Part shown: positions 14,496 through 24,015 of the stretch, piece by piece
How the letters are laid out: every line of letters begins with the position of its first letter
Numbering within the stretch: the stretch's first letter is position 1
From: Pseudomonas frederiksbergensis
GTDB lineage: Bacteria; Pseudomonadota; Gammaproteobacteria; Pseudomonadales; Pseudomonadaceae
NCBI RefSeq assembly: GCF_900105495.1
Contig: NZ_FNTF01000002.1
Coordinates: forward strand, 3,075,501-3,139,500
DNA length: 64,000 nt
Direction of reading: 5' to 3'
Translations under genes and position numbers: made by a program
The notes under the pieces: generated by a model
The model's database searches: none
Told to the model about the DNA's origin: nothing
What the model saw: only the letters and a program-made list of their open reading frames with translations

Positions 14496-14812
14496 CAGTT
14501 TGCTTCCCGCAGAGCCAGCAACACCCGGCCGTTCTCGACCCGTGCTGAGTGGTGGTGAGCGCAACCGATGTCCGGGGCCTGGGCTTCCCCAGTCTCAAGG
14601 TCGATCTGCCAGTTGTGCAGCGGGCAGGCGACTCGTTTGCCGTAGATCAGACCTTGGGACAGTGGCCCGCCCTTGTGTGGGCAGCGGTCATCGAGTGCGA
14701 AAACCTCATCGTCGCTGGTACGAAAAATCGCGATGTCGCCTTTCGGGCCAGCGATGATCCGCGAGCCCAGGGCATTGATTTCTTCCAGTGCGCAGATATC
14801 CAGCCAGTTCAT
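14495..14812 (-). CDS. nirD: Nitrite reductase (NADH) small subunit
   Basis: The 105-residue Rieske-like protein has CPHKGGPLSQGL and CPLHNWQIDLETG, giving two Cys-His pairs of a Rieske [2Fe-2S] site. The nirB family partner stabilises the large subunit and is needed for full NADH-nitrite reductase activity. ATG at 14812 overlaps the nirB stop (ATGA). The more upstream in-frame start would lie inside nirB and is not used. Its own stop overlaps the nasC start by one base, so nirB, nirD and nasC are translationally coupled. Confidence 0.93.
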   Translation of the reverse strand: MNWLDICALEEINALGSRIIAGPKGDIAIFRTSDDEVFALDDRCPHKGGPLSQGLIYGKRVACPLHNWQIDLETGEAQAPDIGCAHHHSARVENGRVLLALREAN

Positions 14813-17262
14813 GCCGGCACCTCCAGATTCTTCACTGTGATGACGTCGAATTCTTTCTTCAGCAGCGGTTGTTCCAGGCGTTCCTTCCACGGGTCCTGTT
14901 CGAACGACAAGGAGAATTGCAAGCGCTCGTTGAGCGCCTTGCGCCGCTCCGGGTCTTCCAGCACGGCTTTCTTGATGTGTTCCATGCCGACCCGTTGCAG
15001 GTAGTGCACGGTGCGTTCGAGGTAGAAAGCCTCTTCGCGATAAAGCTGCAGGAACGCGCCGTTGTATTCACGCACTTCTTCGGCGGTTTTCAGTTTGACG
15101 AAGAATTCCGCGACCTCGGTTTTGATCCCACCGTTGCCGCCGATGTACATTTCCCAGCCCGAATCCACGCCGATAATTCCGACGTCCTTGATGCCCGCTT
15201 CCGAACAGTTGCGTGGGCAACCGGAGACGGCGAGTTTCACTTTATGCGGCGACCACATGTTGAACAGGTCGTGCTCAAGCTCGATGCCCAGTTGCGTGGA
15301 GTTCTGCGTACCAAAACGGCAGAACTCGCTGCCGACGCAAGTCTTCACGGTGCGGATGGATTTGCCGTAGGCGTGGCCGGACGGCATGTCGAGATCTTTC
15401 CAGACGCCGGGCAGGTCCTGCTTCTTGATCCCCAGCAAATCGATACGCTGGCCGCCGGTCACCTTGACCATCGGCACGTTGTATTTGTCGGCCACGTCGG
15501 CAATGCGCCGCAGTTCCGAAGGATTGGTCACACCGCCCCACATCCGCGGGACTACAGAGTAAGTGCCGTCTTTCTGAATGTTGGCGTGGGCCCGTTCGTT
15601 GATCAGGCGCGATTGCGGGTCGTCCTTGGCTTCGCCCGGCCAGGTGGAAATCAGGTAGTAGTTGAGCGCCGGGCGGCATGTGGCGCAGCCGTTCGGCGTG
15701 CGCCAGTTCAGGTAGCTCATGGTGCCAGCGATGGTCAGCAGGTGCTGGTCGCGGATGGCCTGGCGGATTTGCCCGTGGTTCAGGTCGCTGCAACCGCAAA
15801 TGGCTTTTTCGCTTTTCGGTTTGACGTCTGCTGCGCCGCCCACGGTGTTGATCAGGATCTGTTCCACCAACCCTGCGCAGGAGCCGCAGGAGCTGGCAGC
15901 CTTGGTGTGTTTCTTGACGTCGTCGACGCTGAACAGCCCGTGTTCCTGAATCGCCTTGACGATGGTGCCTTTGCACACGCCGTTGCAGCCGCAGACTTCG
16001 GCGGTGTCGGCCATGCTCATGGCTTTGTCCTGACCCTGATGTCCTACGTCGCCCAAGGCGTTTTCGCCGAACATGAGGTGATCGCGGATCTCGTCGATGG
16101 CGTGGTTCTCACGGATCTGCCGGAAATACCAGCCACCGTCTGCCGTATCGCCGTACAGACAGGCCCCGACCAGCACGTCATCCTTGATCACCAGTTTTTT
16201 GTAGACCCCGCCGATAGGGTCGGAAAGGGTGATGGTTTCAGTGCCTTCGCCGCCCATGAAGTCGCCAGCGGAGAACAGGTCGATGCCGGTGACTTTCAAT
16301 TTGGTCGACGTCACCGAACCCTTGTAGGTGGCGAAGCCCAGTTGGGCGAGGTGGTTGGCGCAGACCTTGGCCTGTTCGAACAGCGGCGCCACCAGGCCGT
16401 AGGCTATGCCGCGGTGGCTGGCGCATTCGCCGATGGCGTAGACCCGAGGGTCGTAGGTTTGCATCGTGTCATTGACCAGAATCCCGCGGTTGCAAGGGAT
16501 GCCGGATTTTTCCGCGAGTTCGGTGTTGGGGCGAATACCGGCGGCCATCACCACCAGGTCGGCGGGGATGATGTCGCCATTCTTGAACTCGACCGAGCCG
16601 ACCCGGCCATTGCCGGCATCGTGCAGGGCCTGGGTCTGCTCGCACAGGCGAAAGTGCAGGCCACGGGCTTCCAGGGCGGTTTGCAGGAGTTGGCCGCTGG
16701 TTTTGTCCAGTTGCCGTTCCAGCAGCCATTCACCGATGTGCACCACGGTGACGTGCATGCCGCGCAGCATCAGGCCGTTGGCCGCTTCCAGGCCGAGCAG
16801 GCCGCCACCGATTACAACGGCGTGCTTGTGGGTTTTCGCCGTGTCGATCATGGCCTGGGTGTCGGCGATGTCGCGGTAGCCGATTACGCCGTCCAGAGTG
16901 TTGCCGGGAATCGGCAGGATGAACGGGGTCGAACCGGTGGCGATCAGCAGGCGATCGTATTCGGCCTCGCTGCCGTCTTCAGCGATCACGCGGCGTTTGA
17001 CCCGGTCGATCTCCACCACTTTGCGGTTGAGCAGCAGCTTGATGTTGTTGTCCAGGTACCAGTCCAGATCGTTGAGCACGATCTCTTCGAAGGTCTGTTC
17101 GCCGGCCAGCACGGGCGAGAGCAGGATGCGGTTGTAGTTGGTATGAGGTTCGGCGCCGAAGACCGTGATGTCGTACAGCTCATTGCTCAACTTGAGCAGT
17201 TCTTCCAGGGTGCGAACCCCGGCCATGCCGTTGCCGATCATCACCAGTTTTAGTTTTTTCAT
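14809..17262 (-). CDS. nirB: Assimilatory nitrite reductase (NADH) large subunit
   Basis: This 817-residue enzyme reduces nitrite to ammonia with NADH. Domains in order are an FAD/NAD(P) pyridine-nucleotide reductase (about 1-320, IGNGMAGVRTLEELL and VVIGGGLLGLEAANGL), a rubredoxin-reductase-like C-terminal section, one or two BFD-type [2Fe-2S] modules (CGCNGVCKGTI, SCGSCAGLVEQIL, CGCSDLNHGQIR) and the siroheme/[4Fe-4S] module (about 550-810). The module's cluster cysteines are in TCVGSEFCRFG and SGCPRNCSEAGIKD. The ATG at 17262 follows GGAGATCCTG. It is the first gene of nirB-nirD-nasC-cobA, 69 nt after a NasT-type leader terminator. The antisense open frame across it is a shadow. Confidence 0.95.
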   Translation of the reverse strand: MKKLKLVMIGNGMAGVRTLEELLKLSNELYDITVFGAEPHTNYNRILLSPVLAGEQTFEEIVLNDLDWYLDNNIKLLLNRKVVEIDRVKRRVIAEDGSEAEYDRLLIATGSTPFILPIPGNTLDGVIGYRDIADTQAMIDTAKTHKHAVVIGGGLLGLEAANGLMLRGMHVTVVHIGEWLLERQLDKTSGQLLQTALEARGLHFRLCEQTQALHDAGNGRVGSVEFKNGDIIPADLVVMAAGIRPNTELAEKSGIPCNRGILVNDTMQTYDPRVYAIGECASHRGIAYGLVAPLFEQAKVCANHLAQLGFATYKGSVTSTKLKVTGIDLFSAGDFMGGEGTETITLSDPIGGVYKKLVIKDDVLVGACLYGDTADGGWYFRQIRENHAIDEIRDHLMFGENALGDVGHQGQDKAMSMADTAEVCGCNGVCKGTIVKAIQEHGLFSVDDVKKHTKAASSCGSCAGLVEQILINTVGGAADVKPKSEKAICGCSDLNHGQIRQAIRDQHLLTIAGTMSYLNWRTPNGCATCRPALNYYLISTWPGEAKDDPQSRLINERAHANIQKDGTYSVVPRMWGGVTNPSELRRIADVADKYNVPMVKVTGGQRIDLLGIKKQDLPGVWKDLDMPSGHAYGKSIRTVKTCVGSEFCRFGTQNSTQLGIELEHDLFNMWSPHKVKLAVSGCPRNCSEAGIKDVGIIGVDSGWEMYIGGNGGIKTEVAEFFVKLKTAEEVREYNGAFLQLYREEAFYLERTVHYLQRVGMEHIKKAVLEDPERRKALNERLQFSLSFEQDPWKERLEQPLLKKEFDVITVKNLEVPA

Positions 17263-17331: not shown

Positions 17332-17369
17332 AAAAAAAGGCGTCCCGCTAGTTGCCTAGCGAGGACGCC
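17332..17369 (-). terminator. Leader terminator (attenuator) upstream of nirB
   Basis: On the minus strand, GGCGTCC-T-CGCTAG pairs with CTAGCG-GGACGCC around a GCAA loop, giving a 13-bp stem, and is followed by seven T residues. It stands 69 nt before nirB, so transcription stops unless an antiterminator acts. Confidence 0.92.
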
Positions 17370-17437
17370 TTTGTCCTGGTCCCGTTCTCTCGGGCAGCGC
17401 ACCCTTCATCGTTGAAGGCTGGGCTTTATGTATGGTG
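17362..17437 (-). ncRNA. NasT/ANTAR-responsive leader RNA of nirBD-nasC-cobA
   Basis: Three successive stem-loops carry hexanucleotide loops with A at position 1 and G at position 4. They are CCTTC[AACGAT]GAAGG at 17403-17418, CCCG[AGAGAA]CGGG at 17381-17394 and AGGAC[AAAGGC]GTCCT at 17362-17377. The last shares its loop GGC and 3' arm with the 5' arm of the terminator, so the two structures exclude each other. This is the published two-hairpin ANTAR target, plus one extra hairpin. The 5' end is estimated from the sigma-54 promoter. Confidence 0.85.
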
Positions 17438-17447
17438 AGAGAGGTAA

Positions 17448-17463
17448 TGCAGTGGTTGTGCCA
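17448..17463 (-). promoter_or_regulatory. Sigma-54 promoter of the nirB operon
   Basis: The minus strand reads TGGCACAACCACTGCA, which fits TGGCAC-N5-TTGCA with the invariant GG-N10-GC spacing. Initiation would fall near 17437, about 19 nt before the first leader hairpin. Confidence 0.85.
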
Positions 17464-17528
17464 AGTTCTTCAGGTGCCCGGATTTACTGGAGGGAATCGC
17501 GCTCTAGGCATTTGGATTGGGATGTTTG

Positions 17529-17725: not shown

Positions 17726-19396
17726 TCAGTCGTGGAACAGCAGAAACAGCAGCACCAGGTTCACCAGCAACGACACCAGCGCCAAGGTCCGCCAGACCTT
17801 CAATGGTTCGCGCTCCAGCAGCGGCCTGGGGCGCACGCTCAAACTGCGCCGCTCGCCCTGTTCCAGCAGCAGTAACCATTCTTCCGCCGTTTCAAAGCGT
17901 TGATCCGGATCCGCCGCTACTGCGTGCTCCAGACTTTTCGCAATCCATTCCGGCAGGTCGGGTCGATAGCGACTGGCGCTGACAGGAACCCCGAACCGCG
18001 GGCGCTGAAAAGCTTCGATTTCACCGTAGGGATAATGCCCGGTGAGCAGGAAATACAAGGTCACGCCGACGGCATACAGGTCCTGTTGCGGTGTCGGTGC
18101 GTCCCCGCGAAAGGCTTCCGGCGCGATATAGCTGGGGGTCCCGGGCAGGGCAGAAGGCTGGTCTTCGGACAGGCCCGGGCAGTAGGCGAGACCGAAATCC
18201 AGCAGGCGCAATTCGCCGTCGTCCCCCAGCAGCAAGTTCTCCGGTTTGATATCGCGATGAAGAATCTGCCGTCGATGCAGCATGCCTACTGCGCGCAGCA
18301 GGCGTTCGGCCAGATCCTGCCATTGGGGCAGCGGCAGCGGTCCTACATCGGCGTGCAATTGCGCCAAGGTCGATCCGGAATATTCCCGCATCACGTAGTA
18401 CAAATGCTGACGCTGACTGGCGGCATGGACTTCAGGGAAGTGCCGCCCGGCCACGCGCTTGAGAAACCATTCTTCCGACAGCAACGCCTGCCCTGCGAGG
18501 TGATCGTCACGCAGCGCGCCCGGCAAGGTTTTCAGTAGCCAGGGCTGTTGTTGCCCATCGCGCACCCGATAAAGCAGCGACTGCTGGCTCTGGCCGAGTA
18601 TTCCTTCAACCTGCCAGCCTTCGAAAGTCTGGCCTGGTTTCAAGGCCGGTGGCAGCGGCCACTGCTGCAAATGAATCAACGCATCGCCGATGCTGGTTTC
18701 ACCGAGGGCATCGACCCGCACCAACAAGGCGCTGGCGTTGTCCTGGCTGCCGGCCAGATGCGCCGCACTGACCAAGGTCTGCGCCGCGCTGTTCAAATCC
18801 GGTTGATCGCGCAGAATTGCCGCGATCGCAGTGTCGCCCAGCACGGCCCAAATGCCGTCGCTGAGCAGTACGAAACTTTCGTTCAAGCGCAGTTCGCCAT
18901 CGAGAAAATCCAGCACCAAATGCTGATCGAGCCCAAGTGCCCGTTTGAGTACATGCTGCATGCCCGGCTGGTCCCAGACGTGATCCTCGCTGACCCGTTG
19001 CAAGGTGTCGGCGTGCCAGCGATAAACCCGGCAATCGCCGACATGGGCCAAGGTAAATCGCCTGCCGCGCATGACCAAAGCACTGACAGTGGTGAGCAAC
19101 GGTTGCCCACCGCCATTGGCCTGCAACCAGCGATTTTGTGCCAGTAGCAGGCGATCCAAGGCCTGTGCGACGCCCCAGGTTTCCGGCGTGGCGTAGTAAT
19201 CCAGCGCCAGGGCCTGCAACGTCGAGCGGGCGGCGAGGCCACCATCGGCGCACTGGCTGACGCCATCGGCGATGGCGAACAGGTAACCCTTGCTCGCCGC
19301 CAGCGCCGGGGCCGGAGTCACCAGGCGCAGGGCGTCCTGATTCTCCTCGCGAGGGCCGATGGCGCTCGCTTCGGCAAAACTCAGTTGCAGGCTCAT
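17726..19396 (-). CDS. Bifunctional PP2C phosphatase / Ser-Thr protein kinase, membrane-anchored
   Basis: The 556-residue protein fuses two opposing activities. Residues about 1-235 are a PP2C-type phosphatase with all metal-binding motifs visible: REENQDAL, IADGVSQCADGG, HVGDCRVYR, LLSDGIW and SQDNASALLV. Residues about 260-520 are a Hanks-type kinase with WLLKTL (ATP lysine), HRDIKPENLLL (catalytic Asp), DFGLAYCPG and GTPSYIAPE. A single C-terminal helix (TLALVSLLVNLVLLFLLF) anchors it in the inner membrane with both domains in the cytoplasm. It starts 7 nt after the nitrate transporter stop, with a GAGG ribosome site overlapping that stop, so it is in the nasA operon. Its substrates are unknown. 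The location suggests a role in nitrate uptake or assimilation. Confidence 0.92.
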   Translation of the reverse strand: MSLQLSFAEASAIGPREENQDALRLVTPAPALAASKGYLFAIADGVSQCADGGLAARSTLQALALDYYATPETWGVAQALDRLLLAQNRWLQANGGGQPLLTTVSALVMRGRRFTLAHVGDCRVYRWHADTLQRVSEDHVWDQPGMQHVLKRALGLDQHLVLDFLDGELRLNESFVLLSDGIWAVLGDTAIAAILRDQPDLNSAAQTLVSAAHLAGSQDNASALLVRVDALGETSIGDALIHLQQWPLPPALKPGQTFEGWQVEGILGQSQQSLLYRVRDGQQQPWLLKTLPGALRDDHLAGQALLSEEWFLKRVAGRHFPEVHAASQRQHLYYVMREYSGSTLAQLHADVGPLPLPQWQDLAERLLRAVGMLHRRQILHRDIKPENLLLGDDGELRLLDFGLAYCPGLSEDQPSALPGTPSYIAPEAFRGDAPTPQQDLYAVGVTLYFLLTGHYPYGEIEAFQRPRFGVPVSASRYRPDLPEWIAKSLEHAVAADPDQRFETAEEWLLLLEQGERRSLSVRPRPLLEREPLKVWRTLALVSLLVNLVLLFLLFHD

Positions 19397-19403
19397 TGAA
19401 GCC

Positions 19404-20615
19404 TCAGACCCGTGCAGCGGTCACGGCCGCCGAACCCCACGTGGTTCTCCAGCGACGTTTCACACCGTGCAGGCCGAACCAGGCCAGAACGCCAAGGCTG
19501 GCGAACAACCACAAGGCCAGTTGATAACTGCCGGTGCTTTGCTTGATCGCGCCCATGCCCGCTGCCAGCGCAAATCCACCAATACCGCCGGCCATGCCGA
19601 TCAAACCGGTCATTACACCGATCTCGCGACGAAAACGCTGCGGCACCAATTGGAAAACGGCGCCGTTACCGGCACCCAAACCGAGCATGGTGCAGACGAA
19701 AAGTGCCAGCGCTGCGTAGGAACTCGGCAGGTTGAAACCCACCGCGGCGATGCAGAGCGCCGCCACCGTGTACATCCCCAGAAGGGTGCGAATGCCACCG
19801 AAACGATCCGCCAGAGCGCCACCCAACGGACGCATCAAGCTGCCACCGAACACGCATGCGGCAGTGTAGTAGCCGGCGGTCACCGGGCTGAGGCCATATT
19901 GGTCGTTGAAATAGCCGGGCAAGGCGCTGGCCAGGCCGATGAAGCCGCCGAAGGTCACGCTGTAGAAAAACATGAACCACCAGCTGTCGCGGTCGCCCAA
20001 GGCCTTGAAGTAGTCGGACACGGACTTGGCTTTTGGCCGCTCAGGCGCGTTTTTCGCCAGCCAGGCGAAGACGATGATGGTCAGGATCAGCGGGATCAGG
20101 GCGAAGCCGAACACGTTGCTCCAGCCAAATGCTGCGGCCAGCACCGGGGCGATCAGTGCGGCGAGCACAGTGCCCGAGTTACCGGCACCGGCGATGCCCA
20201 TGGCTTTGCCTTGGTGCTGAGGGGGATACCATTGCGAGGCCAGCGGCAAGGCGACGGCAAAGGATGCGCCCGCCATGCCGAGGAACAGGCCCAGCACCAG
20301 CGCTTGTTCGTAGCTGTGGATGCCGTGTTTCCAGGCAACGAACAGGGCGCAGATGACGATCACCTGGCCAATCAGCCCGGCGGTTTTCGGCGACAGGCGA
20401 TCAGCCAGCAAGCCCATTACAAAGCGCAACACGGCCCCGGCCAGAATCGGCGTGGCCACCACCAGCCCGCGCTGTTGGGTGGTCAGGTGCAGGTCAGCAG
20501 CGATTTGCACCGCCAGTGGGCCGAGCAGGTACCAGACCATGAAACTCAGGTCGAAATAGAGGAAGGCCGCGAACAATGTCGGGGTATGGCCAGATTTCCA
20601 GAAGCTTGAATTCAT
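19404..20615 (-). CDS. nasA: Nitrate/nitrite transporter, NarK/NasA-type MFS
   Basis: The 403-residue inner-membrane protein has about twelve hydrophobic segments. It carries the two nitrate-signature glycine motifs of NarK/NRT2 proteins, AGAGNSGTVLAAL (about 140-152) and GLGAGNGAVFQLVPQRF (about 310-326), together with the MFS loop GLLADRLSPK after helix 2. It should import nitrate for the cytoplasmic reductase. The ATG at 20615 follows GAGGTG. It lies 100 nt behind an ANTAR-type attenuator and is co-transcribed with the PP2C/kinase gene. The symbol nasA is used for the transporter in P. aeruginosa, and narK-like names are equally defensible. Confidence 0.92.
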   Translation of the reverse strand: MNSSFWKSGHTPTLFAAFLYFDLSFMVWYLLGPLAVQIAADLHLTTQQRGLVVATPILAGAVLRFVMGLLADRLSPKTAGLIGQVIVICALFVAWKHGIHSYEQALVLGLFLGMAGASFAVALPLASQWYPPQHQGKAMGIAGAGNSGTVLAALIAPVLAAAFGWSNVFGFALIPLILTIIVFAWLAKNAPERPKAKSVSDYFKALGDRDSWWFMFFYSVTFGGFIGLASALPGYFNDQYGLSPVTAGYYTAACVFGGSLMRPLGGALADRFGGIRTLLGMYTVAALCIAAVGFNLPSSYAALALFVCTMLGLGAGNGAVFQLVPQRFRREIGVMTGLIGMAGGIGGFALAAGMGAIKQSTGSYQLALWLFASLGVLAWFGLHGVKRRWRTTWGSAAVTAARV

Positions 20616-20715: not shown

Positions 20716-20766
20716 AAAAAAACGCCGCCACCGGATTCGCCAAAGGGCAAATGAGGTGAGCGACGT
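20716..20766 (-). terminator. Leader terminator (attenuator) upstream of the nitrate transporter
   Basis: On the minus strand ACGTCGCT-(C)-ACC pairs with GGT-GGCGGCGT, with an inner stem TTTGCC/GGCGAA, followed by seven T residues. It ends 100 nt before nasA. Confidence 0.88.
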
Positions 20767-20805
20767 CTTTGTCGTAGGTGGGGCAACCGCCGTTGGTTAC
20801 CTGTA
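20761..20805 (-). ncRNA. NasT/ANTAR-responsive leader RNA of nasA-kinase/phosphatase
   Basis: P1 is GGTAACC[AACGGC]GGTTGCC at 20782-20801, with 7 base pairs. P2 is CGAC[AAAGAC]GTCG at 20761-20774. Both hexaloops have A1 and G4, and P2 overlaps the terminator 5' arm (20759-20766). The predicted start near 20805 puts P1 at the very 5' end. Confidence 0.88.
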
Positions 20806-20815
20806 GTGATTACCT

Positions 20816-20831
20816 AGCGAGATCTGTGCCA
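20816..20831 (-). promoter_or_regulatory. Sigma-54 promoter of the nitrate transporter operon
   Basis: The minus strand reads TGGCACAGATCTCGCT. The -24 element TGGCAC is perfect, the -12 element is TCGCT, and GG-N10-GC spacing is kept. Confidence 0.78.
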
Positions 20832-20963: not shown

Positions 20964-21539
20964 TCAGCCGAGCAACTCACTCATGGCAATGATCTGCTCC
21001 GCCACCTGAATCAGCTTCTGCTGGCGGCTCATGGCCTGGCGGCGCATCAGGGTGTAGGCCTCTTCCTCGTTGCAGTCCTTCATTTTCATCAACAGCCCTT
21101 TGGCCAGCTCGATGCGCTTGCGCTCGGCCAGTTGCTGGTCGCGGGCATTGAGTTGGGCGCGCAGGGCCTGGTCGCTTTCAAAACGCGCCATGGCGACGTC
21201 GAGAATCGGCTGCAAGCGCTGTGCGTGGATGCCTTCGACGATGTAGGCACTGACCCCGGACTTGATCGCCTGACGCATCACATTGGGGTCATGTTCATCG
21301 GTAAACATCACGATCGGCCGCGGTTGGTCGCGGCTCACCAGCACCACTTGTTCCATGACATCGCGGCTCGGTGACTCGGTATCGATCAAAATCACGTCCG
21401 GACGCACCGTTTCGACGCGCGCGGGCAGGTCGATGGTCAGGCCTGACTCGTCGATCACCTCGAACCCGGCTTCGGTCAGGGCCGCCTTCAGGCGTCCGAC
21501 TTTCTTTGCGGTGTCGTTGATCAGCAGGATACGCAACAT
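20964..21539 (-). CDS. nasT: ANTAR-domain transcription antiterminator NasT
   Basis: The 191-residue protein joins a receiver-like domain (about 1-120; VILIDTESPS holds the position of the phospho-Asp, and MFTDEHDP follows) to a C-terminal three-helix ANTAR RNA-binding domain (about 125-188; AERKRIELAKGLLMKMKDCNEEEAYTLM is the region, key residues A, K, G, A and M). NasT binds paired hexaloop hairpins and prevents formation of a leader terminator, and NasS holds it inactive without nitrate. It follows nasS by 15 nt with ribosome site CAGGAG. Three matching leaders lie within 6 kb. Confidence 0.95.
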   Translation of the reverse strand: MLRILLINDTAKKVGRLKAALTEAGFEVIDESGLTIDLPARVETVRPDVILIDTESPSRDVMEQVVLVSRDQPRPIVMFTDEHDPNVMRQAIKSGVSAYIVEGIHAQRLQPILDVAMARFESDQALRAQLNARDQQLAERKRIELAKGLLMKMKDCNEEEAYTLMRRQAMSRQQKLIQVAEQIIAMSELLG

Positions 21540-21554: not shown

Positions 21555-22766
21555 TCAGCGGCTGGCGAGAAGGGGCGAGCTGTCGCTCATGGCGTGCAGC
21601 TTGAAACTGCGGGCATAACCGGCAGGGTCCAGGCCATCCCAGACCTTGCCGTCGATCAACTGGCTGCTGCGCATTGGCTGATCACTCGCGGCCACACCGA
21701 CAGCGGTGGCGGCCTCTCGATACAAGTCTAGTTGCTGGACCTGACGGGCCACGCCCAGGTAGTCCGGGTCGTCGCGCAACAAGCCCCAACGGCGGAACTG
21801 AGTCATGAACCACATGCCATCGGACAAATACGGCAGATTGACCTCGCCATTGTCGTGGAAGCGCAGGGCGTGCGGGTCTTGCCAGCGATTACCCAGGCCA
21901 TCGGCATAGTCACCGAGCAATCGCGGTTCGATGCAATCGAGTGGCGCGTCAAGGTATTGCGGAGCGCTCAACAGCTTTGCGGTGCTGCGGCGATTCTCGG
22001 TGCTTTCTTCGATGAAGCGGCTGGCCTCCAGAATCGCCATCACCAGCGCCCGTGCGGTGTTGGGGTATTGCTCGACAAAGGCGCGGGTGCAGCCGAGGAC
22101 TTTTTCCGGGTGATCGGGCCAGATGGTCTGGGTGGTGGCCATCGTGAACCCCAGGTTTTGCTGCACCGCGCTGGCGGACCATGGTTCGCCGACGCAGAAG
22201 CCGTCGATGCGCCCGGCTTGCAGGTGCGCGACCATCTGCGGCGGCGGTACCACCACGCTGTCGACGTCCTGCAACGGATGGATGCCCTGGCTCGCGAGCC
22301 AGTAATACAGCCACATGGCGTGGCTGCCCGTAGGAAATGTCTGGGCGAAGGTGAGTTTTGGGCGACTTTGGTGCACGTGCCGCTCCAGTGCTTCAGGACT
22401 GGTCACGTCCAGCGCCTGCAAGCCATGGGAGAGGTTGATGCTCTGGCCATTCTGATTCAGGCCCATGAGCACCGCCATGTCGGTCGACGCGACACCGCCG
22501 ATGCCCAAATGCACGGCGTAGATCAGACCGTACAAACTGTGGGCGGCGTCGAGTTCGCCGCTGACCAGTTTGTCCCGCAGGTTGGCCCAGGACGACTGGC
22601 GCTTGAGGTTCAGGGTCAGGCCGTACGGTTGGGCAAAGCCCTGCGTGGCCGCGACCACTACCGAGGCGCAGTCGCTCAGGGCCATGAAGCCGAGGTTGAT
22701 TTCGGTCTTTTCCGGGGCATCGCTGCCGTTGACCCAGGCCAGAGGGTTGGCTGGAACTTCAATCAT
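21555..22766 (-). CDS. nasS: Cytoplasmic nitrate sensor NasS
   Basis: The 403-residue protein resembles the periplasmic nitrate-binding proteins NrtA/CmpA (LGFMALSDCASVVVAA near the N terminus, PTGSHAMWLYYWLASQG and FCVGEPWSASAV in the binding cleft) but has no signal peptide or lipobox. It is therefore the cytoplasmic NasS that binds NasT and releases it when nitrate or nitrite is bound. ATG at 22766 is chosen because AAAGGTG lies 8 nt upstream. A much longer in-frame extension to 23003 would cross the leader terminator and promoter and is rejected. It is the first gene of nasS-nasT. Confidence 0.94.
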   Translation of the reverse strand: MIEVPANPLAWVNGSDAPEKTEINLGFMALSDCASVVVAATQGFAQPYGLTLNLKRQSSWANLRDKLVSGELDAAHSLYGLIYAVHLGIGGVASTDMAVLMGLNQNGQSINLSHGLQALDVTSPEALERHVHQSRPKLTFAQTFPTGSHAMWLYYWLASQGIHPLQDVDSVVVPPPQMVAHLQAGRIDGFCVGEPWSASAVQQNLGFTMATTQTIWPDHPEKVLGCTRAFVEQYPNTARALVMAILEASRFIEESTENRRSTAKLLSAPQYLDAPLDCIEPRLLGDYADGLGNRWQDPHALRFHDNGEVNLPYLSDGMWFMTQFRRWGLLRDDPDYLGVARQVQQLDLYREAATAVGVAASDQPMRSSQLIDGKVWDGLDPAGYARSFKLHAMSDSSPLLASR

Positions 22767-22783
22767 CTGTAAACACCTTTCAT

Positions 22784-22836
22784 AAAAAAGCGCCGGACCG
22801 GGCTGCTTGCCAGGGCAAGGCCAAGTGACGACGCCT
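22784..22836 (-). terminator. Leader terminator (attenuator) upstream of nasS
   Basis: On the minus strand GGCGTCG pairs with CGGCGCT (one G-T), with an inner stem CTTGC/GCAAG, followed by six T residues. It ends only 17 nt before the nasS ATG. Confidence 0.8.
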
Positions 22837-22877
22837 TTGTCTTTCGACTCATCCCGCCGTTGGCATGAGTGCTGATG
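22830..22877 (-). ncRNA. NasT/ANTAR-responsive leader RNA of nasS-nasT
   Basis: P1 is ACTCATGCC[AACGGC]GGGATGAGT at 22847-22870, with one internal G-G mismatch and the same loop as in the nasA leader. P2 is GAC[AAAGGC]GTC at 22830-22841, overlapping the terminator 5' arm. Both loops have A1 and G4. P2 has only three pairs here, so it is the weakest of the set. Confidence 0.8.
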
Positions 22878-22887
22878 TGAGTGGCGG

Positions 22888-22903
22888 TGCAAGGCATATG
22901 CCA
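22888..22903 (-). promoter_or_regulatory. Sigma-54 promoter of nasS-nasT
   Basis: The minus strand reads TGGCATATGCCTTGCA, a near-perfect TGGCAC-N5-TTGCA with GG-N10-GC spacing. The start near 22877 is seven bases before P1. Confidence 0.85.
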
Positions 22904-22995: not shown

Positions 22996-24015
22996 ATGTA
23001 CACCCTGGCCCGTCAGCTGTTGTTCAAACTTTCCCCGGAAACCTCCCACGATCTGTCCCTGGACCTGATCGGCGCGGGCGGGCGTTTGGGCCTCAACGGC
23101 TTGCTGTGCAAGGCGCCGGCTAAATTGCCGGTGACCGTCATGGGCCTGGACTTCCCGAACCCGGTGGGTCTGGCGGCCGGTCTGGACAAGAACGGCGCGG
23201 CCATCGACGGTTTTGCGCAACTGGGTTTCGGGTTTGTCGAAATCGGCACCATCACTCCGCGTCCGCAGCCGGGCAACCCCAAGCCACGGATTTTCCGTCT
23301 GCCGGATGCCGAGGCGATCATTAACCGCATGGGGTTCAACAACCTCGGCGTCGATCACCTGCTGGCTCGAGTGGCGGCGGCAAAGTTCAAGGGTGTGCTG
23401 GGCATCAATATCGGCAAAAACTTCGATACCCCGGTTGAGCGAGCGGTCGACGACTACCTGATCTGCCTGGACAAGGTCTACGCCCACGCCAGCTACGTGA
23501 CAGTCAACGTCAGCTCGCCGAACACCCCGGGCCTGCGCAGCCTGCAATTCGGCGATTCGCTGAAGCAATTGTTGGCCGACCTGGCGACGCGCCGTGCAGA
23601 ACTGGCGCTGCGCCACGGCAAACATGTACCGCTGGCGATCAAGATTGCGCCGGACATGACCGACGAAGAAACCGCTCAGGTCGCGCAAGCGCTGATCGAA
23701 ACCGGTATGGACGCGGTGATCGCCACCAACACCACCCTGAGCCGCGTTGGCGTAGAAGGCATGGAGCATGGTGACGAGGCGGGCGGTCTGTCCGGCGCAC
23801 CGGTTCGCGACAAGAGCACCCACACCGTGAAGGTGCTGGCGGCCGAGTTGGCTGGTCGCTTGCCGATCATCGCCGTGGGCGGCATCACCGAAGGCAAGCA
23901 CGCGGCTGAGAAAATCGCTGCAGGGGCCAGCCTGGTGCAGCTCTATTCCGGCTTCATCTATAAAGGCCCGGCGCTGATCCGGGAATCCGTCGACGCGATA
24001 GCAGCCCTGCGCTGA
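22996..24015 (+). CDS. pyrD: Dihydroorotate dehydrogenase (quinone), class 2
   Basis: The membrane-associated flavoprotein oxidises dihydroorotate to orotate with ubiquinone in pyrimidine synthesis. The protein has 339 residues. The N-terminal amphipathic helix ([19 protein letters not shown]) marks class 2. FMN-barrel motifs are [39 protein letters not shown], the catalytic serine loop [12 protein letters not shown] and the C-terminal AVGGIT and [11 protein letters not shown]. It is divergent from nasS. Confidence 0.97.

Follow-up and report, generated by a model that had tools for sequence, protein, structure and literature searches.

The window, meaning the whole stretch of 64,000 nucleotides that was analyzed, carries a nas gene cluster on its minus strand, in which the sensor gene nasS and the regulator gene nasT are followed by a transporter gene, a fusion gene and nirB (Table 1). 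The leader considered here sits upstream of nasS, in the 229-base gap that separates this gene from pyrD. A sequence-only reading of the region had described a sigma-54 site, two hairpins (P1 and P2) and a terminator 17 nt before nasS, and each of these elements was found where it had been placed.

Table 1. Genes and leader elements of the nas cluster, with positions in the window.
Feature	Position	Strand	Remarks
nasS	21555-22766	-	403 aa, nitrate/nitrite-binding sensor (NMT1_2); name and role by homology and gene order
nasT	20964-21539	-	191 aa, receiver-like domain and ANTAR
nasA-type MFS transporter (nitrate-transporter-like)	19404-20615	-	
kinase/phosphatase fusion gene	17726-19396	-	
nirB	14809-17262	-	assimilatory nitrite reductase
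pyrD	22996-24015		divergent from nasS
nasS leader, sigma-54-type promoter (-24/-12)	22888-22903	-	TGGCATATGCCTTGCA; GG-N10-GC, 10/12 consensus bases
nasS leader, P1 hairpin	22847-22870	-	loop AACGGC 22856-22861; 6 bp, one mismatch, 2 bp; C:G closing pair
nasS leader, P2 hairpin (antiterminator)	22830-22841	-	hexaloop AAAGGC 22833-22838; 3-bp stem, C:G closing pair
nasS leader, intrinsic terminator	22784-22838	-	5' arm AAAGGCGUCG 22829-22838, 3' arm 22786-22795, T-run 22784-22789
nasA leader	20716-20831	-	sigma-54-type site 20816-20831, P1 20785-20798, P2 20761-20774, terminator end 20716
nirB leader	17332-17463	-	sigma-54-type site 17448-17463, P2 17363-17376, terminator end 17332
nirB leader, P1	17381-17394 or 17403-17418	-	

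In the promoter, 10 bases separate the GG from the GC and the flanks agree with the consensus, and transcription of nasST would start at about position 22877. In the best fold, the leader forms P1 and a long terminator, with P1 outside the terminator. Because the 5' arm of the terminator consists of the P2 loop and the P2 3' strand, which pair with the 3' arm in this fold, P2 and the terminator are mutually exclusive, as ANTAR antitermination demands; this exclusivity is read from the predicted fold and its conservation. A description of P2 and the terminator as distinct elements was rejected, since the two overlap. The T-run is separated from the nasS ATG (22764-22766) by 17 nt, and the P1 and P2 loops lie 23 nt apart. 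The sequence features expected of an ANTAR-responsive leader are found: a tandem pair of hairpins, neither shorter than 3 bp, A1 and G4 in both hexaloops, C:G closing pairs, exclusivity of P2 and terminator, a constrained loop distance and an ANTAR protein encoded in the genome. The loop letters and closing pairs also fit the NasR SELEX results and the Ramesh 2012 motif as reported (PMC7496416; PMC3369931). The minimum free energy of -35.5 kcal/mol corresponds to a z-score of -1.77, with 8 of 200 shuffles equally good; folding energy alone is unremarkable, this z-score was rejected as proof because it is too weak, and the case is carried by comparative evidence. A short reading frame, ATGAAAGGTGTTTACAGATGA (22764-22783, minus strand), begins directly after the T-run and runs into the start of nasS. 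Locus L014 contains a comparable stretch, and the frame may be a chance occurrence.

The same order of elements, a sigma-54-type site followed by P1, P2 and a terminator, is common to the nasS, nasA and nirB leaders. The nasA leader was identified as Rfam narK (RF03032; 80.6 bits, 20760-20830, minus strand) and the nirB leader as Rfam P11 (RF00625; 127.9 bits, 17339-17475, minus strand). Both families show the NasT two-hairpin layout here and both are probably NasT targets, P11 being probably the RNA named NalA. The narK model spans the sigma-54-type site, P1 and P2, as found in the nasS leader, which matches it at 22828-22902 with 35.6 bits (E 2e-5). This score lies below the narK gathering score of 43.2 bits, so that the nasS leader of the window does not belong to the family by this measure; the nasS leader of one relative (L093) passes it with 45.3 bits.

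NasT is the sole ANTAR match (PF03861) in the genome. A covariance model built on a hand-thinned set of 54 nasS leaders, from which near-copies and most leaders with a poor P1 or a long linker were left out, was run against the whole genome. It returned the nasS leader itself (88.7 bits, a training sequence), the nasA leader (46.1 bits, E 4e-10) and the nirB leader (25.7 bits, E 7e-4), and besides nasS only these two rose above noise in this genome. The next match, at 19.9 bits, falls within an opposite-strand open reading frame and was rejected as a fourth target, and the exact P2 words (17 in the genome, versus 27 for a backward control pattern) give no support for one.

Conservation of the leader was assessed in 117 Pseudomonas loci, 30 returned automatically and 87 picked by hand. 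Under a strict rule, which required P1 and P2 with A1/G4 loops, a T-run and a pairing of 7 bp or more joining the P2 region to the flank of the T-run, a leader was found upstream of nasS in 71 of the 117 loci. Of 7020 dinucleotide shuffles of these regions, 3 satisfied the same rule. So did 2 of 2835 control windows taken from 87 of the loci, and both of these matches coincide with leaders of other nitrate-binding-protein genes. A looser rule identified a nasS leader in 80 loci, 72 of them with P1, and the covariance model applied to the remaining 37 added L131, in which the P2 stem is broken, and L110, in which the match is stretched; script and model together place a nasS leader in 81 of the 117 loci. 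The match in L110 (6239-6362, minus strand) extends over 124 nt, lies about 230 nt further before nasS and looks like an insertion. In 35 of the 117 loci, script and covariance model returned nothing convincing at the nasS position, the only matches there being those of L134 (18.2 bits) and L143 (12.4 bits). The nasS leader is therefore dispensable.

The spacing of the elements is narrow. The distance from the GC of the -12 element to the closing C of P1 is 25-28 nt in 70 of the 72 leaders with P1, and the gap from the T-run to nasS measures 12-166 nt in every one of the 80 leaders found by the script. Among 80 named relatives, defined as loci titled Pseudomonas and including no P. aeruginosa, the promoter and P2 words are 50-120 nt apart in 78. 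The two exceptions are L202, which has a leader with one altered P2 stem base, and L225, which is without P2 and terminator. In L225, as in L028, a P1-like hairpin stretch is kept before nasS with P2 and the terminator gone, which amounts to a natural deletion allele.

Alignment of the 80 leaders showed changes on both sides in 8 of the 10 P1 pairs, outer pairs included. The covariation score of P1 and P2 together was 0.270, compared with 0.107 in shuffles (none of 500 as high), at most 0.118 for slid versions of the two hairpins and 0.284 in the hand-thinned set. The closing pairs are kept in 79/80 (P1) and 80/80 (P2) leaders. The three inner P2 pairs are formed in all 80 by selection of the set, and since they scarcely vary, the support for P2 is one of conservation; because the search rule itself called for the P2 loop letters and stem, these are not independent evidence. 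Terminator pairs are formed in 93.1% of alignment cells, whereas slid versions reach 71.3% at best; 2 of the 10 pairs change on both sides, and the covariation score is 0.159 versus 0.128 in shuffles.

Departures from the pattern were also recorded. A1 and G4 of the P1 loop are both kept in 76 of the 80 leaders, the exceptions being L104, L124, L142 and L146. The distance between P1 and P2 is 20-24 nt in 66 of 72 nasS leaders and 34-38 nt in the other six (L023, L025, L027, L030, L031 and L064), which carry about 11-15 extra bases between the hairpins and form a natural test case for the spacing rule; in nasA leaders it is 23-31 nt (n = 94). The departing P1 loops and long linkers count against NasT control in those loci, and the six long linkers count against the explanation that we favor below, given the strong constraint on P1-P2 spacing described for EutV (PMC8934654). 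Counting against it as well are the 35 loci without a nasS leader, the narK score below the gathering score and a P2 weaker than in the other two leaders.

The short P2 stem noted in the sequence-only reading is real and conserved: P2 has 3 bp in 70 of 80 nasS leaders, in which the fourth position is unpaired, compared with 4 bp in 94/95 nasA leaders and 4-5 bp in 31/31 nirB leaders. Mean P2 energies are -3.06 kcal/mol for nasS (n = 80), -4.20 for nasA (n = 94) and -5.95 for nirB (n = 31). The suggestion that this stem sets a basal leak is not supported in general, as the mean cost of forming P2 relative to the best fold is equal for nasS (9.55 kcal/mol) and nasA (9.65 kcal/mol), with 11.64 kcal/mol for nirB. 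The cost is lower for nasS only in this strain (6.5 versus 11.1 kcal/mol for nasA), and a weak antiterminator would be expected to reduce read-through in the absence of NasT rather than to increase it.

In a NasS tree built with a quick method, the 81 leader-bearing loci include deep branches of the genus. The leader label changes 8 times, at least 6 of these changes being forced by well-supported (starred) branches. The count itself cannot separate gain from loss; we read the changes as losses because the leader is present in deep branches, and it seems to date back to the ancestor of the genus and to have been lost several times. A single clade of 24 loci (between L095 and L141) is wholly without a nasS leader; in its largest part (19 loci) the distance from the beginning of the promoter-like site to the NasS start used is 50-63 nt. 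Among the 37 loci in which the script found no nasS leader, L110 included, 35 have nasA in range, and every one of these keeps a leader before nasA; the script identified 25 of them and the model 10, with 20.8 bits as the lowest score. The loss is therefore specific to nasS. Because relatives differ in the presence of this one element and keep the nasA leader, an autoregulatory loop could be tested with natural parts. The gene order in four loci of the leaderless clade (L097, L105, L119, L121), with nasA, the kinase gene and then a cobA-like gene, matches that of P. putida as given in PMC7801951, a species with which the clade may be identified. Under a simple ribosome-site rule, the start codon of leader-bearing nasS genes is ATG in 76/76, compared with GTG in 19, TTG in 3 and ATG in 10 of 32 leaderless genes; L115, L123, L130, L131, L132, L140, L145 and L147 were dropped for lack of an anchor, and L110 was counted apart. 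All 22 non-ATG starts fall within the 24-locus clade. The shift thus represents one evolutionary event, and an account of it as compensation is only a suggestion.

Taken together, the anatomy, the conservation, the covariation, the sole ANTAR match and the architecture shared with the nasA and nirB leaders are best explained by antitermination of the nasST mRNA by NasT, as the sequence-only reading had proposed. We consider it probable that the nasST operon carries a NasT-responsive two-hairpin attenuator and that NasT antiterminates its own operon. Under nitrogen limitation, RNA polymerase containing sigma-54, presumably activated by NtrC, would start just upstream of P1. In the absence of nitrate, NasS would hold NasT and the terminator would fold using the P2 sequence, so that most transcripts would end before nasS with a basal level remaining. 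With nitrate or nitrite present, NasS would release NasT, which would bind the P1 and P2 loops and block the terminator, and nasS and nasT would be made in quantity alongside nasA and nirBD. NasT binding, antitermination and the release by nitrate are inferred from published work on other leaders. In Paracoccus, NasT is reported to bind the nasA leader and the NasS-NasT complex to dissociate with nitrate (PMC3795266), and recognition of two hairpins is described for ANTAR proteins (PMC3369931; PMC7496416; PMC8934654).

Published expression data bear on the promoter. An ntrC mutant of P. aeruginosa is reported to show nasS down 91-fold and nasT down 83-fold (PMC7214821), and NtrC dependence of both genes is given in PMC7214821 and PMC8443478. 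The Paracoccus nasTS genes are described as NtrC-controlled and expressed on all nitrogen sources tested, at very low levels with ammonium, with the hairpins located before nasA (PMC5424462). In P. putida, nasT is reported to rise 7.25-fold on nitrogen limitation (PMC7801951); this rise is no test of self-antitermination because the gene order matches that of the leaderless clade. nasST would accordingly be gated at its promoter by nitrogen limitation and also, provided that the leader functions, by nitrate via NasT. The term feed-forward loop, used in the sequence-only reading, does not suit the action of NasT on its own mRNA, which is feedback, and fits the sigma-54-type promoters driving nasST, nasA and nirB together; if the leader works, the wiring is positive feedback nested in a feed-forward arrangement. 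A dedicated leader on the regulator's own operon would redraw the circuit of nitrate control in Pseudomonadaceae, with induction predicted to be stronger, delayed or dependent on history.

Among known systems, the nasS leader is closest to NasT-regulated nas leaders such as Paracoccus nasA and Pseudomonas NalA/nirBD. With the nasA and nirB leaders in the window it has in common the sigma-54-type site, P1, P2, a terminator overlapping P2, similar loops and the gene cluster. The Azotobacter nasAB leader is cited as another NasT-regulated leader. These known leaders precede transporter or enzyme genes, whereas the nasS leader precedes the sensor-regulator pair and has a 3-bp P2. NasT dependence of nirBD through NalA in Pseudomonas is given in a review (PMC12830290), and the NasT targets named in the published accounts consulted are assimilation and denitrification genes. 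That a sensor operon targeting itself would lack a classical precedent is contradicted by AmiC-AmiR, in which a binding-protein sensor and an ANTAR protein are encoded within the operon that AmiR antiterminates, amiEBCR(S), as described in PMC5259723; there, amiC and amiR lie behind an enzyme gene under the amiE leader, whereas nasST has a leader of its own. EutV-EutW of Enterococcus shares the two A1/G4 hexaloops and a P2 overlapping the terminator, but signals through a histidine kinase and has its leaders before eutP, eutG, eutS and eutA (PMC3369931). The Klebsiella NasR/nasF leader likewise mediates nitrate-responsive ANTAR antitermination through two hairpins, but NasR itself senses nitrate, and the accessible text of PMC7496416 does not mention a self-target. 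The RNA type is thus already known. A dedicated self-targeting leader, expression or binding data on the nasS leader, or any mention of it were not found in the literature searched, a search that was incomplete and did not reach key NasT papers.

The conserved weaker P2 invites a more elaborate proposal, which as a whole we regard as rather unlikely: the nasS leader would be a tuned self-amplifying node, in which nasST is antiterminated last, so that enzymes and transporter are induced first and the regulator is then latched high; loss of the leader would exchange this latch for plain control by nitrogen limitation, accompanied in one large clade by a weak GTG or TTG start of nasS. A P2 that is weaker than those in nasA and nirB leaders, together with the 8 label changes (at least 6 forced), the P1 loop departures (4/80) and the long linkers (6/72), would also be expected of a vestige, a leader inherited or copied from another NasT target that still terminates but on which NasT no longer acts usefully, and which is drifting, hence the losses. 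We judge this improbable, as drift does not sit well with P1 covariation far above shuffles, the retention of closing pairs in 79/80 and 80/80 leaders, the near-fixed distance from the sigma-54 site to P1 in 70/72, or the fact that deep branches of the genus have kept the leader, as have seven other genus codes within the family.

An attenuator free of NasT control, for example a fixed terminator that merely lowers nasST expression, would accommodate the 8 of 80 leaders that fail a simple P1 rule. P1 would be superfluous to a fixed terminator, but it covaries and has both A1 and G4 in 76/80 leaders, and the architecture matches that of the nasA and nirB leaders, making this account very improbable. 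Also very improbable is a role of the short terminated RNA mainly in titrating NasT, with read-through mattering less: EutX/Rli55 is reported to titrate the ANTAR protein EutV in this way (PMC5821096), and nitrogen limitation would lead to the synthesis of three leaders of this type, but the predicted fold of the terminated RNA hides the P2 loop inside the terminator, so that only P1 is presented, and the T-run precedes nasS by 12-166 nt in 80/80 leaders, as expected for control in cis. Antitermination of nasST by NasT remains our preferred explanation.

Of 34 additional NasS loci in the wider family, 21 gave a match to the model at the nasS position (27 to 75 bits). These cover seven genus codes besides that of the window, and none of the 10 loci of genus code g2 gave a match. 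Outside the family, the strict script identified no leader before the sensor pair in the DNA examined of 14 NasS-like loci, chosen by eye for a protein without an obvious signal sequence and with nasT located in 11; in five of the 14, a leader lies downstream. As far as this sample goes, self-targeting looks like a family trait.

Seven NasS-like loci outside the family, L149-L155, were rejected as leader-bearing nasS genes because their products have a twin-arginine-like N-terminus by eye. The Pfam TAT_signal match in L151 reaches 20.5 bits, under the cut-off of 22.7, and permease and ATPase genes follow in L151 and L152, the two that were checked. Seven nrtA leaders score 23-35 bits with the nasS-leader model, compared with 46 bits for the nasA leader of the window; as the nasA leader outscores them, a derivation of the nasS leader from an nrtA leader is not claimed. 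In the protein tree, Pseudomonadaceae NasS stands beside TAT-type NrtA (support 90/92, not starred), and the AU test rejects a single clade of all proteins labeled cytosolic, the labels having been assigned by eye and long branches being present. Judging from these sequences (L295, L296, L302-L306 and L149-L155), Pseudomonadaceae NasS may represent a binding protein whose export signal has been lost. It keeps an SDAPEK stretch that is found in NrtA just behind the TAT-like N-terminus.
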